From Balneola sp. (lineage in GTDB: Bacteria > Bacteroidota > Rhodothermia > Balneolales > Balneolaceae), in assembly GCA_003712055.1 (NCBI GenBank), contig RHLJ01000004.1, positions 62,001 to 126,000 of the forward strand: a stretch of 64,000 bases of DNA. The letters are read 5' to 3'. Below, one piece after another: positions 51,485 to 57,370 of this stretch. The notes below the pieces were generated by a model. It did not search any database, had not been told where the DNA came from, and was given only the letters and a program-made list of their open reading frames with translations. Position 1 is the first letter of the stretch. Each line of letters begins with the position of its first letter. Position numbers and translations under genes: made by a program.

Positions 51485-54061
51485 ATGAAGAGAAGAATAT
51501 TTGCAGCACTTTTTGTTGTCATTGTAAGTATCGATGTGCATGCACAAACTCCCATTGCTTTTAATACTATTACAGTTGATGGTGAGCTTCCTGATGAAAA
51601 GAGCAAGGCCAGCACCCCGGTAACATTTATTAGCATTAATGAAGAGATTTTCTCAGAAGAAAACCTAAAAGTAGGAACCCAGCTTCAGGTTAACACTCAT
51701 ACCCAACAAAGTGTAGTTACCATTAACAGGGTTAGCGAATATATGCCTGGCTTAATTTCAGTCAGCGCTACTTCTGAAAACGATCCCGGAAATGTATTTA
51801 GCTTTACCTATAAAGAGGGAAGGCTTATTGGTCTTTTGCATGAATCTCTTGGAGACAATACACATTTCGATTATTCAAGTAAGCAGAAATCCAATTATTT
51901 CACTAAGGCAGAACCCGAAGCTTATGTATGTACTGTTGATCATGATGAATTCGGGAACCATTATAATGGACAGGAAACACTCGAAAAAAAGAATAAGGCC
52001 CAATCTGATGTAGTGAATTTTGTGGCCGGGACTACGGGGTCTTCTACTACCATTGACGTTATGATTGTCTATACCGCAAATGCAGAAGTTGCTGCATTTC
52101 TGGAATCAGAAGGAATTGAATTTGTAATCGCACAATCAATGAATTTGTCACAGACAGCTCTAGATAACAGCGGTATTCCTATTACGCTAAGATTAGTTCA
52201 CACCTATAAAACAGAGGAAAATGTTACCCAGTCTTCCGGGGATCAATTACGGTTATTAACGGCTTCCCCGACATTCAATCCTTTTGGAATTCAGGATGGT
52301 ATACTTGATGAGGTACATACATTAAGAGATCAGTATGGGGCCGACCTTGTTACCCTATATGCTGACGTAAGTGATACTGGAGGAATTGCATGGGTTGGCA
52401 CCAACAGGAATGGGTCACCTGATTTCGGCTTTTCTTTAAATCGAGTGAGGCAAGCGCACAATTCTTATACAGTGGTTCATGAGCTTGGGCATAACATGGG
52501 GAACTTTCATTCAAGAACCCAAGCAGTTCAAACAGCACCTGTTACAGGGGGCGTTTTTCAGGAGTCGGTTGGTTATCAAGATTTGGTTGATAGTGTTGCT
52601 ACAGTTATGGCTTATACAACAGGAGGATTAACAAGAATCCCTTATTTCTCAAGCTCTACGCGCTCAGTAGGAACCACCCCCCTAGGGATAAATAGTACGG
52701 TACTCATAACAGATGCCTCATTAAGTTTAAAGAGGATAAAAAATGCGATAGCCTCCTATCGAAAAACTACAATTGATGCCCCTACAAGCTCGGTCTCAAC
52801 AAATAGCATTGAGGTTAATTTATCTCCGGAGGAAACAGCAAATATTTCGGTAACGATTGAAAATACAGGAGCTTCTTTGTTGGAATATGATGTGGATTTT
52901 GAAATGGGAAGAAACATTCTTTCAAAGCAGGCATTAAGTACATCATCAAACGTTCCTTCTGCGGCTAATACCCGACTTTTTGGGACAGGCTTTGAAAGCG
53001 GGGTAGGCTTTTTCTTATCCAGCTTTGAAGCAATTAGTTCCTGGAGAACGTTTGGAGGAACAGATATTACAATATCTAATGAGTTTGCATCTCAAGCAGA
53101 TCAGCATTTACGACTTTTAAGCACAGGAACTGGAGGGTCAAAAACTATTTTTGGTCCATTTTTAGGCTCACTTCCATTCGCATCTTATAGAACTACGTTC
53201 GATATAAAAGTATCGTCATCGGAACAAACTAATAATGAGACATTTGATATTATCTTTTTGGATGGGAAAGATCAGGAGTCAAGTAGTGGGATTCGAATAA
53301 TAGGAGGGGAAATTTATGTTCTCGGAAAGAATGAGCTTGGGCAGGATTTATACCAGTCTTCAGGAATTATGGCATCCAGTGATAACTATAATGAAATTGA
53401 AATTGATGTTAATACTTTTGAGAATGAGATCAATTATTACATCGATTCGGTACTTGTAGCTGAGATTCCAATTTCGAATTTCGGAATCACCCCAGCTGAG
53501 ATAATTATTGCAAGTACAAATTTAAACAACGGGACCTTTCTCGATTTTGATAATTTTAAGGTCTTTAGATATGAAAACCCGTATCCCTGGTTAACGGTCA
53601 ATACCAATACCAATACCGTAACTGAAGGGAATAGTAAAGACATAGTATTTACATTCAGTTCGGTAGGAGTAGAAAACGGTACTTATACAACTACTGCACT
53701 TATAAATACAAATGAGGGCGGGGTTCCTGTTTACGAAATACCAATCACATTAAATATCTCAGGAGTTGTATCCAACGAATCTGATCCTGAGAGAGCTGAA
53801 GAATTCCAGTTGCTACAGAACTACCCAAATCCATTTAATCCATCAACAACAATTAGCTTCTCTTTACCTCAATCAGGAGATGTTTCATTGAAGGTTTATA
53901 ATGCAATAGGTATGGAGATGGGAACACTGGTTGACGAATTTTATTCTGCAGGGCAGCATCGGGTTCAATTTGATGCAAGTTCGCTTGCCAGCGGCATCTA
54001 TATTTACTCACTTGAGTTTGGCGGTGTTAAACAAACCCGCAAAATGCTTCTTCTCAAATAG
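51485..54061 (+). CDS. Secreted metzincin metalloprotease (M12-like) with T9SS sorting tail
   Basis: An 858-residue secreted protease. The signal peptide ends SIDVHAQ. A propeptide-like region (about 25-185) precedes the catalytic domain (about 190-425), which carries the zinc motif HELGHNMGNFH at 332-342 (His332, Glu333, His336, His342) and the Met-turn VMAYTTGG. Beta-sandwich domains follow, one laminin-G/concanavalin-like (about 500-700). The tail begins LLQNYPNPFNPSTTISFSL and ends RKMLLLK, the type A type IX secretion signal. It probably degrades extracellular protein for nutrition. The next gene starts three bases after the stop. Confidence 0.9.
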   Translation: MKRRIFAALFVVIVSIDVHAQTPIAFNTITVDGELPDEKSKASTPVTFISINEEIFSEENLKVGTQLQVNTHTQQSVVTINRVSEYMPGLISVSATSENDPGNVFSFTYKEGRLIGLLHESLGDNTHFDYSSKQKSNYFTKAEPEAYVCTVDHDEFGNHYNGQETLEKKNKAQSDVVNFVAGTTGSSTTIDVMIVYTANAEVAAFLESEGIEFVIAQSMNLSQTALDNSGIPITLRLVHTYKTEENVTQSSGDQLRLLTASPTFNPFGIQDGILDEVHTLRDQYGADLVTLYADVSDTGGIAWVGTNRNGSPDFGFSLNRVRQAHNSYTVVHELGHNMGNFHSRTQAVQTAPVTGGVFQESVGYQDLVDSVATVMAYTTGGLTRIPYFSSSTRSVGTTPLGINSTVLITDASLSLKRIKNAIASYRKTTIDAPTSSVSTNSIEVNLSPEETANISVTIENTGASLLEYDVDFEMGRNILSKQALSTSSNVPSAANTRLFGTGFESGVGFFLSSFEAISSWRTFGGTDITISNEFASQADQHLRLLSTGTGGSKTIFGPFLGSLPFASYRTTFDIKVSSSEQTNNETFDIIFLDGKDQESSSGIRIIGGEIYVLGKNELGQDLYQSSGIMASSDNYNEIEIDVNTFENEINYYIDSVLVAEIPISNFGITPAEIIIASTNLNNGTFLDFDNFKVFRYENPYPWLTVNTNTNTVTEGNSKDIVFTFSSVGVENGTYTTTALINTNEGGVPVYEIPITLNISGVVSNESDPERAEEFQLLQNYPNPFNPSTTISFSLPQSGDVSLKVYNAIGMEMGTLVDEFYSAGQHRVQFDASSLASGIYIYSLEFGGVKQTRKMLLLK

Positions 54062-54064
54062 AAG

Positions 54065-54595
54065 ATGTTTCCCGATAAGGAATGGATTTATGATCATGAC
54101 GAACCTAAAGCCCGATATTCTTTAGGTCAGGAAGGTTCAAACCCATTCGTATGCTTCGGGGTAAATCCCAGCACAGCGGTTCCAGGTAACCTGGATCCTA
54201 CCGTCGCATCAGTAGCTCGTTTTGCCACCAATCATAGTTATGATGGATGGTTGATGTTTAACCTTTATCCACAGCGAGCTACAAATCCCAACAATATGCA
54301 CCGTAAATTTCAGTCTTCTATTCACTTAAAAAACCTTGACGCAATTGAACGGTTACTGAACGAAGTCAAAGGAAGTATTGATGTATGGTGCGCCTGGGGA
54401 ACGTTGATCGAAAAAAGACCTTACTTGTTAAGATGTCTCACTGAAATTTATGAAGTGCTCTCTGCTTCAAATTGCAGGTATCTTAGCCGGGGAAGTATTT
54501 CAAAAGCAGGGCATCCGCATCATCCTCTGTATCTCAAAAAAACCGCTCCTCTTGAAGTGTTTGATCTTAATAGATATTTGAGTGAAAGGCCTTAA
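54065..54595 (+). CDS. DUF1643-family protein
   Basis: A 176-residue soluble protein: RYSLGQEGSNPFVCFGVNPSTAVPGN, then DGWLMFNLYPQRATNPNNMH, DVWCAWGTLIEKRPYL and SKAGHPHHPLYLKK. These are the conserved blocks of DUF1643, which includes proteins with a uracil-DNA-glycosylase-like fold; the biochemical role is unknown. It follows the metalloprotease gene by three bases and converges on the broken DUF3127 gene, with which it shares four bases at the 3' end. Confidence 0.88.
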   Translation: MFPDKEWIYDHDEPKARYSLGQEGSNPFVCFGVNPSTAVPGNLDPTVASVARFATNHSYDGWLMFNLYPQRATNPNNMHRKFQSSIHLKNLDAIERLLNEVKGSIDVWCAWGTLIEKRPYLLRCLTEIYEVLSASNCRYLSRGSISKAGHPHHPLYLKKTAPLEVFDLNRYLSERP

Positions 54596-54979
54596 AAAGG
54601 GAGTTCGTCATCTATATCATCGAAAGCCTGAGTATCAATCTCAAAGCTTTCTGTACTAAGAGTAGATGAATTTCCGGCACTATTTTGTTCTCCTGAACCA
54701 TGCTCAACACGCCAGGCCTTTACATCGGTATACCAGTTTCCATTATACTCCCTGCTTTGGATATCAACCGAAGCAGTAACATCAATGCCAACTGAAACTG
54801 GGTGTTGATCAATATTATCACCCCACTGAATTATCACCCCACTGAGTGATGCAGACCTTTTTTGGATACTTACCAGGGATTTCGAGGACGAAATCGCGTT
54901 TTCTCCAGAGGCCATTCTTCCCGGTACCAGATTGTTCATCTAATATTTGTACAACTTTTCCCTGTAAGCGAATATCCAT
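54592..54979 (-). pseudogene. DUF3127 gene disrupted by a 16-bp tandem duplication
   Basis: From ATG 54979 the frame reads MDIRLQGKVVQILDEQ, GTGKNGLWRKRDFVLEIPGK and YPKKVCITQWGDN, the typical DUF3127 OB-fold start, but then hits SVG and a stop. The other half, QWGDNIDQHPVSVGIDVTASV..., ending DDIDDELPF, continues in another frame. The cause is visible: ATTATCACCCCACTGA occurs twice in a row (54814-54829 and 54830-54845), and 16 is not a multiple of three. Removing one copy restores a 123-residue protein. DUF3127 proteins resemble single-stranded-DNA-binding OB folds and are common in Bacteroidota. The break is a mutation or an assembly fault. Confidence 0.88.
54814..54845. repeat. Perfect tandem duplication of 16 bp
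   Basis: ATTATCACCCCACTGA is repeated once without spacing. It lies within the DUF3127 gene and shifts its frame by one base. Confidence 0.95.
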
Positions 54980-55055: not shown

Positions 55056-55925
55056 TTGAATACTGGATTGAGGCCATATTATCTAGGATGTACAGGCTGG
55101 AGTCTACCAGAATGGGTTGGCTCTTTCTATAAAGAGAGGGCAAAACCAGCGGAATATCTAAGCCAATACGCATCAGTTTTTAATACCGTTGAAGGCAACA
55201 CAACTTTTTATAGTGTACCAGCAAAGGAAAATATCCGGCAGTGGATGGACCGAACTCCTGAGGGCTTCAAGTTCTGTTTCAAATTTCCAAGGCTCGTAAC
55301 TCACATTAAGCAACTTCGAGCAGTTGAACAGGAGGTTGCCCAGTTTCTTTCCTTGTTCGAAGATTACAGAGATAAACTTGGCCCATTCATGATTCAGTTT
55401 TCAGATGCATTTTCATATTCAGAGTTACCCAGGCTTGAAAGGTTATTATCCTTTCTTCCTAAGATTTATAATTACGCTATTGAAGTAAGGCATCCAGACT
55501 TTTTTGATCAGGGCAAGCAAGAACAAACACTCAATGCTCTATTAGAAAGCTATGGTGCAGAAAGGGTTATTTTTGATACCAGAAAATTGCATAGTACTAA
55601 TTCCAGTATCCTTTCCATTCAGGAGGCAAAAAGGAAGAAGCCTAAAGTACCTGTTCGATTCACCGCACTAAGTCCAAGGCCATTTATTCGCTTTGTAGGA
55701 GTGAATGACATACTTAATAACGAAGCCTATTTAAAAGAATGGGCTATAATTGTAGCTGACTGGATCAGGGAGGGTAAACACCCATACATTTTTATTCATG
55801 CTCCGGACGTTGTTTCACAGCCGAAACTATGTACTCATTTCCATAAGCTTCTAACGCAGCTGATAGATATTCCCCCTTTGCCTGAATGGCCGATACATCG
55901 CGAGCAGCAGCTAGGATTATTCTAA
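55056..55925 (+). CDS. DUF72-domain protein
   Basis: A 289-residue soluble protein with a TIM-barrel-like DUF72 domain: YYLGCTGWSLPEWVGSFYKE, FNTVEGNTTFYSVPAKENIRQW, GFKFCFKFPRLVTH, LGPFMIQFSDAFSY and FIFIHAPDVVSQP. The family is widespread, with no agreed function. The start is TTG at 55056, preceded by AGGTAAAG; the first conserved block follows closely so a later start is unlikely. The gene is alone. The 187-base gap after it holds one hairpin. Confidence 0.9.
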   Translation: MNTGLRPYYLGCTGWSLPEWVGSFYKERAKPAEYLSQYASVFNTVEGNTTFYSVPAKENIRQWMDRTPEGFKFCFKFPRLVTHIKQLRAVEQEVAQFLSLFEDYRDKLGPFMIQFSDAFSYSELPRLERLLSFLPKIYNYAIEVRHPDFFDQGKQEQTLNALLESYGAERVIFDTRKLHSTNSSILSIQEAKRKKPKVPVRFTALSPRPFIRFVGVNDILNNEAYLKEWAIIVADWIREGKHPYIFIHAPDVVSQPKLCTHFHKLLTQLIDIPPLPEWPIHREQQLGLF

Positions 55926-56112: not shown

Positions 56113-56748
56113 CTAATAATCTACTATTCCGATTAAAGCGGTACTCTGTACAAAAGGTAGTTCTTCAACTTTAGTCATAGCATCTTGTTCAGTACCTGGC
56201 TCACACTGAATGTTTACAGAGCGAGGGGGGTTGCGGAAAATATCATAAGCTACATTTCTAAATCCCGCCATAATTTCTTTAAGACGGGCTTCATCTACTG
56301 AATAGTCAAATTCATATAAAACAGTAGGCCGGGACTCAAATTCCAATAACCTGGCTAGAGCTTTATCATATTCCTCTCCGGTCAATCCTTGCACAGAAAG
56401 CATATTTTCGAAACTAGTTGTATCAATCCGTACTTGATCGGAATAAACGCTAGTCACATTTGGGTGACTCCTTAGTCGGTATAAGGTAGAGTCATCAGGA
56501 CTATTCACAATAGTAATAAGAATGGGTTCAATGTCGATGTAAGTTAGGAAGTACTTCAAGCGCGAAAACTCAGACTGAATAAAATCGGGAGAGACGGTAT
56601 CGTCCAAAAAAGCGATGAATTCACCTTCTAAGAAGGAAACCTCTCCCTGCTCTATTTTACGCAAAGATTCATCACCGATTATTTGTGCACTTACAGGGTG
56701 TGCTAGTAGTAAAAAAAGTATGGCAAAAAACCACTTAGATGTATTCAC
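56113..56748 (-). CDS. Secreted protein with two propeptide-like (inhibitor I9-like) halves, copy 2
   Basis: A 211-residue exported protein. I choose the GTG at 56748 since AGGGAG lies eight bases before it and the signal peptide (FFAILFLLLAHPVSAQ) follows at once; an ATG at 56790 would overlap the upstream gene by 41 bases. Residues about 40-115 (FIAFLDDTVSPDFIQSEFSR...) and 130-205 (VLYEFDYSVDEARLKEIM..., NPPRSVNIQCEPGTEQDAM) each look like the ferredoxin-like fold of subtilase propeptides. It is a diverged copy of the gene before it. No protease domain is attached, so it may inhibit or chaperone a secreted protease. Confidence 0.7.
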   Translation of the reverse strand: MNTSKWFFAILFLLLAHPVSAQIIGDESLRKIEQGEVSFLEGEFIAFLDDTVSPDFIQSEFSRLKYFLTYIDIEPILITIVNSPDDSTLYRLRSHPNVTSVYSDQVRIDTTSFENMLSVQGLTGEEYDKALARLLEFESRPTVLYEFDYSVDEARLKEIMAGFRNVAYDIFRNPPRSVNIQCEPGTEQDAMTKVEELPFVQSTALIGIVDY

Positions 56749-56749
56749 G

Positions 56750-57370
56750 CTATTCTCCCTGTAACATGATAAAAGCTGTATTCTCGACATAATTTATAAG
56801 CTTTAAGGATCGCATTGCTTTCTCCTCTTTACCAACCTCTGTTTTAACAATAACACTTCTGGGACTGGTCATACCGAGCCTCATTTCAAGCTCGGGGATT
56901 GTTTCCAGGAAAGAAAAAGCCATTTCTTCGGTGACAAAATAATTGAAAGTAACCCAATGTGTCTTAATTTTTGAAAAGCGTTCAAAGAATCTTCTATTTC
57001 TTAAAGAATCTTCTGCGCTCATATTTTGACGCTTAACCATTTCTAAAAAGGCTTGTTCATTAAAACTACGACTATCAACAACAATCTTATTGATATAAGG
57101 ATGAGAGGAAAAATTTTCTAGTTCTTGTTTGGTCACGTTTTTATTGAAATAACCTCTAACAGGGTTTATATCCGATTCTACAATTTCATAACCCATCCGA
57201 CTAAAATGGTAGCTCACAAAGTCAGGAGAAACTGTATCAGCCAGAGACACTAATACCTTTCCTTTAGCAAATTTATACTCATTATTTGCAATCCGCGGAA
57301 TCGTCTGCCTAGCACTAACACTACTTGCAATACAAAAACAGGAAATTAGAATAAGAACAGAGGCTCGCAT
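56750..57370 (-). CDS. Secreted protein with two propeptide-like (inhibitor I9-like) halves, copy 1
   Basis: A 206-residue exported protein (signal peptide LILISCFCIASSVSARQ). The first half has GKVLVSLADTVSPDFVSYHF and GYEIVESDINPVRGYF, very like the N-terminal propeptide of secreted subtilases; the second half has VTFNYFVTEEMAFSFLETIP and TSPRSVIVKTEVGKEEKAM, a second similar fold. The downstream gene shares ADTVSPDF/DDTVSPDF, PRSV and a closing VENTAFI/VQSTALI, so the pair is a tandem duplication. The stop is one base before the start of that gene. No protease gene lies next to them. The role is inferred. Confidence 0.72.
   Translation of the reverse strand: MRASVLILISCFCIASSVSARQTIPRIANNEYKFAKGKVLVSLADTVSPDFVSYHFSRMGYEIVESDINPVRGYFNKNVTKQELENFSSHPYINKIVVDSRSFNEQAFLEMVKRQNMSAEDSLRNRRFFERFSKIKTHWVTFNYFVTEEMAFSFLETIPELEMRLGMTSPRSVIVKTEVGKEEKAMRSLKLINYVENTAFIMLQGE

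Follow-up and report, generated by a model that had tools for sequence, protein, structure and literature searches.

The duplicated unit and its gene

The stretch of DNA analysed here, called the window below, comprises 64,000 nucleotides of a Balneola sp. genome. Its minus strand carries, at 54979-54592, a gene of the DUF3127 family (PF11325), and this gene contains a tandem duplication. A 16-base unit stands there twice, in adjacent, head-to-tail copies with 0 mismatches between them, filling positions 54814-54845 (Table 1). The repeat was read directly from the sequence, and TRF reports it at the same positions with a period of 16, 2.0 copies and 100% matches. A unit of 16 bases does not divide into whole codons, so the reading frame changes across the extra copy. 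The N half of the protein is read through WGDN, then S-V-G, then TGA, while the C half lies in the +1 frame and runs from QWGDNIDQ onward to the tail DDELPF.

Taken separately, the two halves score 45.8 and 53.6 bits against the PF11325 profile (cut-off 27), and both also match phrog_4932. The window gene resembles the intact DUF3127 / PHROG 4932 proteins in these matches and differs from them in having its domain split over two frames; it is a broken member of the family. Neither half contains a further stop or frameshift.

The longest ORF holding the C half begins with an ATG at 54939 and has 115 codons (54939-54592, minus strand). Its Pfam match starts only at residue 38, leaving the first 37 residues outside, so the N terminus of this ORF is spurious. 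An annotation pipeline could therefore call a wrong protein of 115 residues, as the first-pass annotation had warned. That annotation had also described a perfect 16-bp tandem duplication breaking the gene, and an intact protein of 123 residues once one copy is removed. Both statements hold: the frames at 54979-54818 and 54939-54592 are separated by the repeat, and 388 bases less 16 make 124 codons with the stop.

Table 1. Features of the DUF3127 locus, in window positions
Feature	Position	Strand	Basis
DUF1643 protein, end overlapping the DUF3127 stop region	54065..54595	+	ORF, Pfam and congener order
C half of DUF3127, other frame, acidic DDELPF tail	54592..54846	-	PF11325 profile 43-85
Unit copy 2 (gene orientation)	54814..54829	-	Direct reading and TRF
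N half of DUF3127, 53-codon ORF with early TGA	54818..54979	-	PF11325 profile 2-47; residues 1-50 align with relatives
Unit copy 1 (gene orientation), encoding the conserved QWGDN stretch	54830..54845	-	Direct reading, TRF and relatives
GTG in frame with the C half close to the break, a possible site of weak re-initiation	54835..54837	-	Sequence
Upstream part of the 115-codon ORF, spurious, the N half read out of frame	54847..54939	-	Pfam match starts at residue 38
DUF72 protein	55056..55925	+	ORF, Pfam and congener order

The order of the genes around DUF3127 (DUF1643, DUF72, TyrA/chorismate mutase and RF3) is the same in the two congeners G001 and G002, and the window locus is thus orthologous and vertically inherited. 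A gene for an M12-type peptidase of 858 aa with a type IX sorting tail lies between TyrA and DUF1643 (51485-54061, plus strand). It is absent from that place in both congeners, where the gap between TyrA and DUF1643 is only about 0.4 kb, so the peptidase was either gained here or lost there. Two neighbouring ORFs on the minus strand at 56113-57370, 225 and 206 aa long, have no Pfam family; both match one and the same G001 ORF, and they therefore look like a tandem pair of paralogues.

The intact protein in relatives

Within the first set of 38 genomes, DUF3127 occurs in 28, the Balneola sp. genome included. The 28 DUF3127 proteins from the 27 other genomes all have a PF C-terminal end. The WG motif appears once in each of the 27 motif-bearing relatives, meaning a single copy of the unit, and none of these 27 has a hypermutable repeat tract in its intact gene. 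One genome, G023, has a second, divergent DUF3127 copy without the WG motif (L030, G023:C87). This copy matches the canonical SSB profile weakly and under the cut-off (E 9.3e-4), which may connect the two families.

Across the GTDB family, the gene was found in 58 of 92 genomes and, when only the more complete genomes are counted, in 50 of 66. In every one of the 57 other carriers, one match covers nearly the whole profile, with no internal stop. The named loci (L031-L074) come from Balneolaceae, Dysgonomonas, Prevotella, other Bacteroidota and some MAGs labelled Gemmatimonadetes, and all 44 read as one uninterrupted frame ending in [LIM]PF. No second broken or two-copy DUF3127 was seen in the 57 family genomes or the 44 named loci; the Balneola sp. 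copy is the one broken gene among 58 carriers across species. In four MAGs labelled Gemmatimonadetes or Gemmatimonadales (L038, L041, L042 and L045), DUF3127 is close to that of Balneolaceae, which may be due to lateral transfer or to mislabelled bins.

The first-pass annotation had called the product a conserved Bacteroidota protein. That description is too broad: DUF3127 was not detected in entire sister genera (9/9 genomes of genus g5 and 2/2 of g21, small genomes of which several are incomplete), nor in G039, a single-contig congener of carriers. G039 is 99% complete, and the gene is present in all 7 of the remaining listed members of its genus; a protein search of it returned one weak match (E 0.075), to the DUF3127 tail region. 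Missing genes elsewhere may partly reflect incomplete MAGs. Judged by this distribution, the DUF3127 gene looks dispensable in evolution, and its apparent natural losses in the family make its function testable.

The intact protein is better described as SSB-like. The relatives were aligned using 27 of the 44 named loci, the other 17 being omitted as redundant or similar, and all 27 match PHROG 4932, 'single strand DNA binding protein'. Pfam found DUF3127 in every one of them and an RPA OB domain weakly in 4. An AlphaFold2 model of the intact relative from the Balneolaceae isolate ih13, of moderate quality (mean pLDDT 62.8, pTM 0.44), shows OB-fold strands, and PriB, SSB and RPA chains head the structure-search lists (best Foldseek E 3.0e-4). 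The model aligns both to PriB (VIA-align with 1woc_A: Z 12.3, 86 residues, rmsd 2.1) and to bacterial SSB (3afq_A: Z 11.8, 92 residues, rmsd 3.2). Bacterial SSB has an acidic ...PF tail, as do the DUF3127 proteins. Unlike bacterial SSB, however, none of the 27 relatives matches PF00436 at E up to 1, and identity is about 10-22% among the structure alignments listed. A sequence-profile search of the PDB gave two rows only, both at chance level (E 0.86 and 0.91).

With moderate confidence, fold and tail together suggest that intact DUF3127 proteins are SSB-like, with an OB fold and an acidic ...PF tail. Residues invariant in the aligned relatives include W25, W47, SRE 70-72, W77-D80 and the final PF. 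The duplication breaks the protein after the strand ending at W47, so neither half should be able to close the barrel. The same genome has a canonical SSB with no internal stop in its profile match (G000:C6:93765-94076). The DUF3127 gene probably encodes an accessory protein beside it, with putative single-stranded DNA binding, a role predicted from domain matches and the model. The one paper found for DUF3127 (PMC8004638) describes as an SSB a phage protein in which this domain occurs, and searches of the literature on reversible tandem duplications and on SSB paralogues found nothing on this DUF3127 gene. DUF3127 proteins look like accessory SSBs, yet Pfam still has the family as one of unknown function; recognizing DUF3127 as a common accessory SSB-like protein would be more useful than the break itself.

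Age and origin of the break

Substitutions were compared between the window gene and five relatives for each half separately, without joining the halves. In the N half, pN ranges from 0.08 to 0.17 and pS from 0.73 to 0.88; in the C half, the ranges are 0.165-0.245 and 0.73-0.99. The pair with L024, for example, has pN 0.08 and pS 0.80 in the N half, and the pair with L023 has pN 0.165 and pS 0.80 in the C half. Low pN beside near-saturated pS is the mark of purifying selection in both halves. The C half of the window gene is slightly more diverged than the relatives are from one another, with a dN of 0.213 to L019, against 0.154 between L023 and L019 and 0.184 between L016 and L019. This extra divergence may reflect a variable linker or constraint that is beginning to relax, and we do not read it as decay. 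The conserved halves, together with the lack of additional lesions and the identity of the two unit copies, indicate that the break is recent.

The duplication is not due to chance. Two adjacent exact 16-mers would be expected in 64 kb with a probability of about 64000/4^16 = 1.5e-5. No other perfect tandem duplication in 464 kb of the Balneola sp. genome has a unit of 10-60 bases, and the congeners G001 and G002 have none at all in the 400 kb compared from each. The unit itself, with up to 1 mismatch allowed, occurs in the 3.63-Mb genome at just the two tandem places.

The event is ordinary, a frameshift caused by a short tandem duplication, and several routes to it were considered. The run of period-16 matches is exactly 16 bases long, so the microhomology at the borders is 0 bases. 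No inverted repeats of at least 6 bases flank the unit among those listed, and the 5-base arms ATCAC/GTGAT at its left border are too short to mean much. Fill-in followed by Ku-dependent end joining was dropped as an origin, since the genome has no match to the Ku protein. The footprint of an excised mobile element seems an unlikely source, as target duplications are not usually 16 bases long.

We favour a very recent spontaneous null mutation by such an ordinary 16-base duplication, to which we give a probability of roughly two in three (0.68). A segment of DUF3127 would have been duplicated head to tail in the strain or lineage sampled, and translation from the proper start would then end three codons past the WGDN motif. 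The remaining half of the OB barrel and the acidic tail would no longer be made in frame. The canonical SSB is still there, the accessory SSB-like protein would be lost, and the accessory nature of the protein would explain why its loss can be survived. The two identical copies also make possible an exact loss of one of them by slippage or recombination, so the null would be revertible. We infer this dispensability and revertibility, as well as the presence of the duplication in the cells. A very recent loss was among the explanations offered by the first-pass annotation and is the one that fits best: the gene is intact in the 57 other carriers, both halves are conserved and the copies are identical. 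Against the favoured reading stand the lack of microhomology, which means that classical slippage between short repeats is not visible, and the missing Ku match, which tells against a fill-in and end-joining route.

The chief rival to a recent mutation is a fault of sequencing or assembly, which we consider unlikely, though clearly worth weighing. In that case the gene would be intact in the cells, with a single copy of the unit, and the extra copy would come from the assembler or from a chimeric or minority read. Full conservation of both halves apart from the repeat fits such a fault, as does the intact state of DUF3127 in every other family member that carries it. So do the uniqueness of the duplication within the 464 kb and borders that show no evident biological route. 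However, the array is 32 bases long, shorter than any read, and a unit with no near copy in the genome invites neither collapse nor bridging of repeats. For the latter reason, misassembly driven by repeats was rejected as a likely cause. The lack of any similar duplication in the rest of the sample also makes a fault less likely. The assembly consists of long contigs (9 for 3.63 Mb), and the genome is 99.43% complete.

Nor does the assembly appear error-ridden, as no other gene in the compared sample was judged truly broken. Congener ORFs were matched to the 464 kb of the genome (212 from one congener and 208 from the other) and gave 4 candidate breaks, 1 of 212 and 3 of 208. One of these is DUF3127 and the other three could be explained away, so a generally faulty assembly was rejected. 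By our reading, one of the three comes from a congener ORF that is too long, its first part aligning over a stop in a different frame. The two others resemble antisense shadow ORFs, with stops or weak partial matches. The DUF3127 gene of G001 is cut by the borders of the compared stretch, and that comparison was unable to flag it. The other directions, run as controls, gave seven raw candidates: 1/222 from the Balneola sp. genome (G000) to G001, 2/222 from G000 to G002, 3/336 from G001 to G002 and 1/323 from G002 to G001.

Possible residual expression and reversibility

If a recent null mutation is the best reading, the allele might still be leaky, by a +1 frameshift at GGG TGA or by re-initiation at the GTG at 54837; we regard this as improbable. 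The frameshift route could yield a full-length protein with a five-residue insertion after WGDN, and the re-initiation route a C-terminal piece. The frame of the C half is indeed the +1 frame and is open all through the overlap, the GTG lies in that frame 17 bases before the stop, and TGA is a slow stop in known +1 shifts, as in the RF2 gene. But a conserved signal for frameshifting is lacking, none of the relatives depends on a frameshift, and the insertion would come after the fourth strand of the predicted barrel.

The other alternative is an evolved phase switch, by which an SSB-like protein would be turned on and off through gain and loss of the unit. The first-pass annotation had raised such a switch, and we found no support for it in the survey of family genomes and named loci. 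It has in its favour that one of two exact adjacent copies can be lost exactly. With 0 two-copy or broken genes in the 57 other family carriers and 44 named loci, we think it very improbable. Zero microhomology leaves the one-copy state without a visible tendency to duplicate. An SSB-like protein is also not a surface antigen or a defence gene of the kind usually switched, and PADLOC found no match for the intact relative or for two neighbour genes. Just as doubtful is a further reading, in which the allele with two copies is a reversible off state kept in the population because loss of the protein alters rates of mutation, recombination or natural transformation. Were it true, a duplication in the gene of a single-stranded DNA-binding protein would be a revertible modulator of genome stability.

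Two of the closest known systems also count in favour of a switch. The review PMC13207564 describes reversible, gene-breaking tandem duplications in fission yeast that are mediated by microhomology, such as those in ssp1 of Schizosaccharomyces pombe, with pairs of microhomology flanking them. The DUF3127 duplication is like them in being short, head to tail and within a coding region, in breaking the frame and in being revertible in principle; it is unlike them in that its borders have 0 bases of microhomology. In Mycobacterium tuberculosis, according to PMC12817950, tandem repeats in promoters recur across isolates and their copy number varies within populations. The DUF3127 case shares with these phase-variable repeats a tandem unit longer than a microsatellite, but it is found in 1 of 58 carriers and lies inside a coding region.
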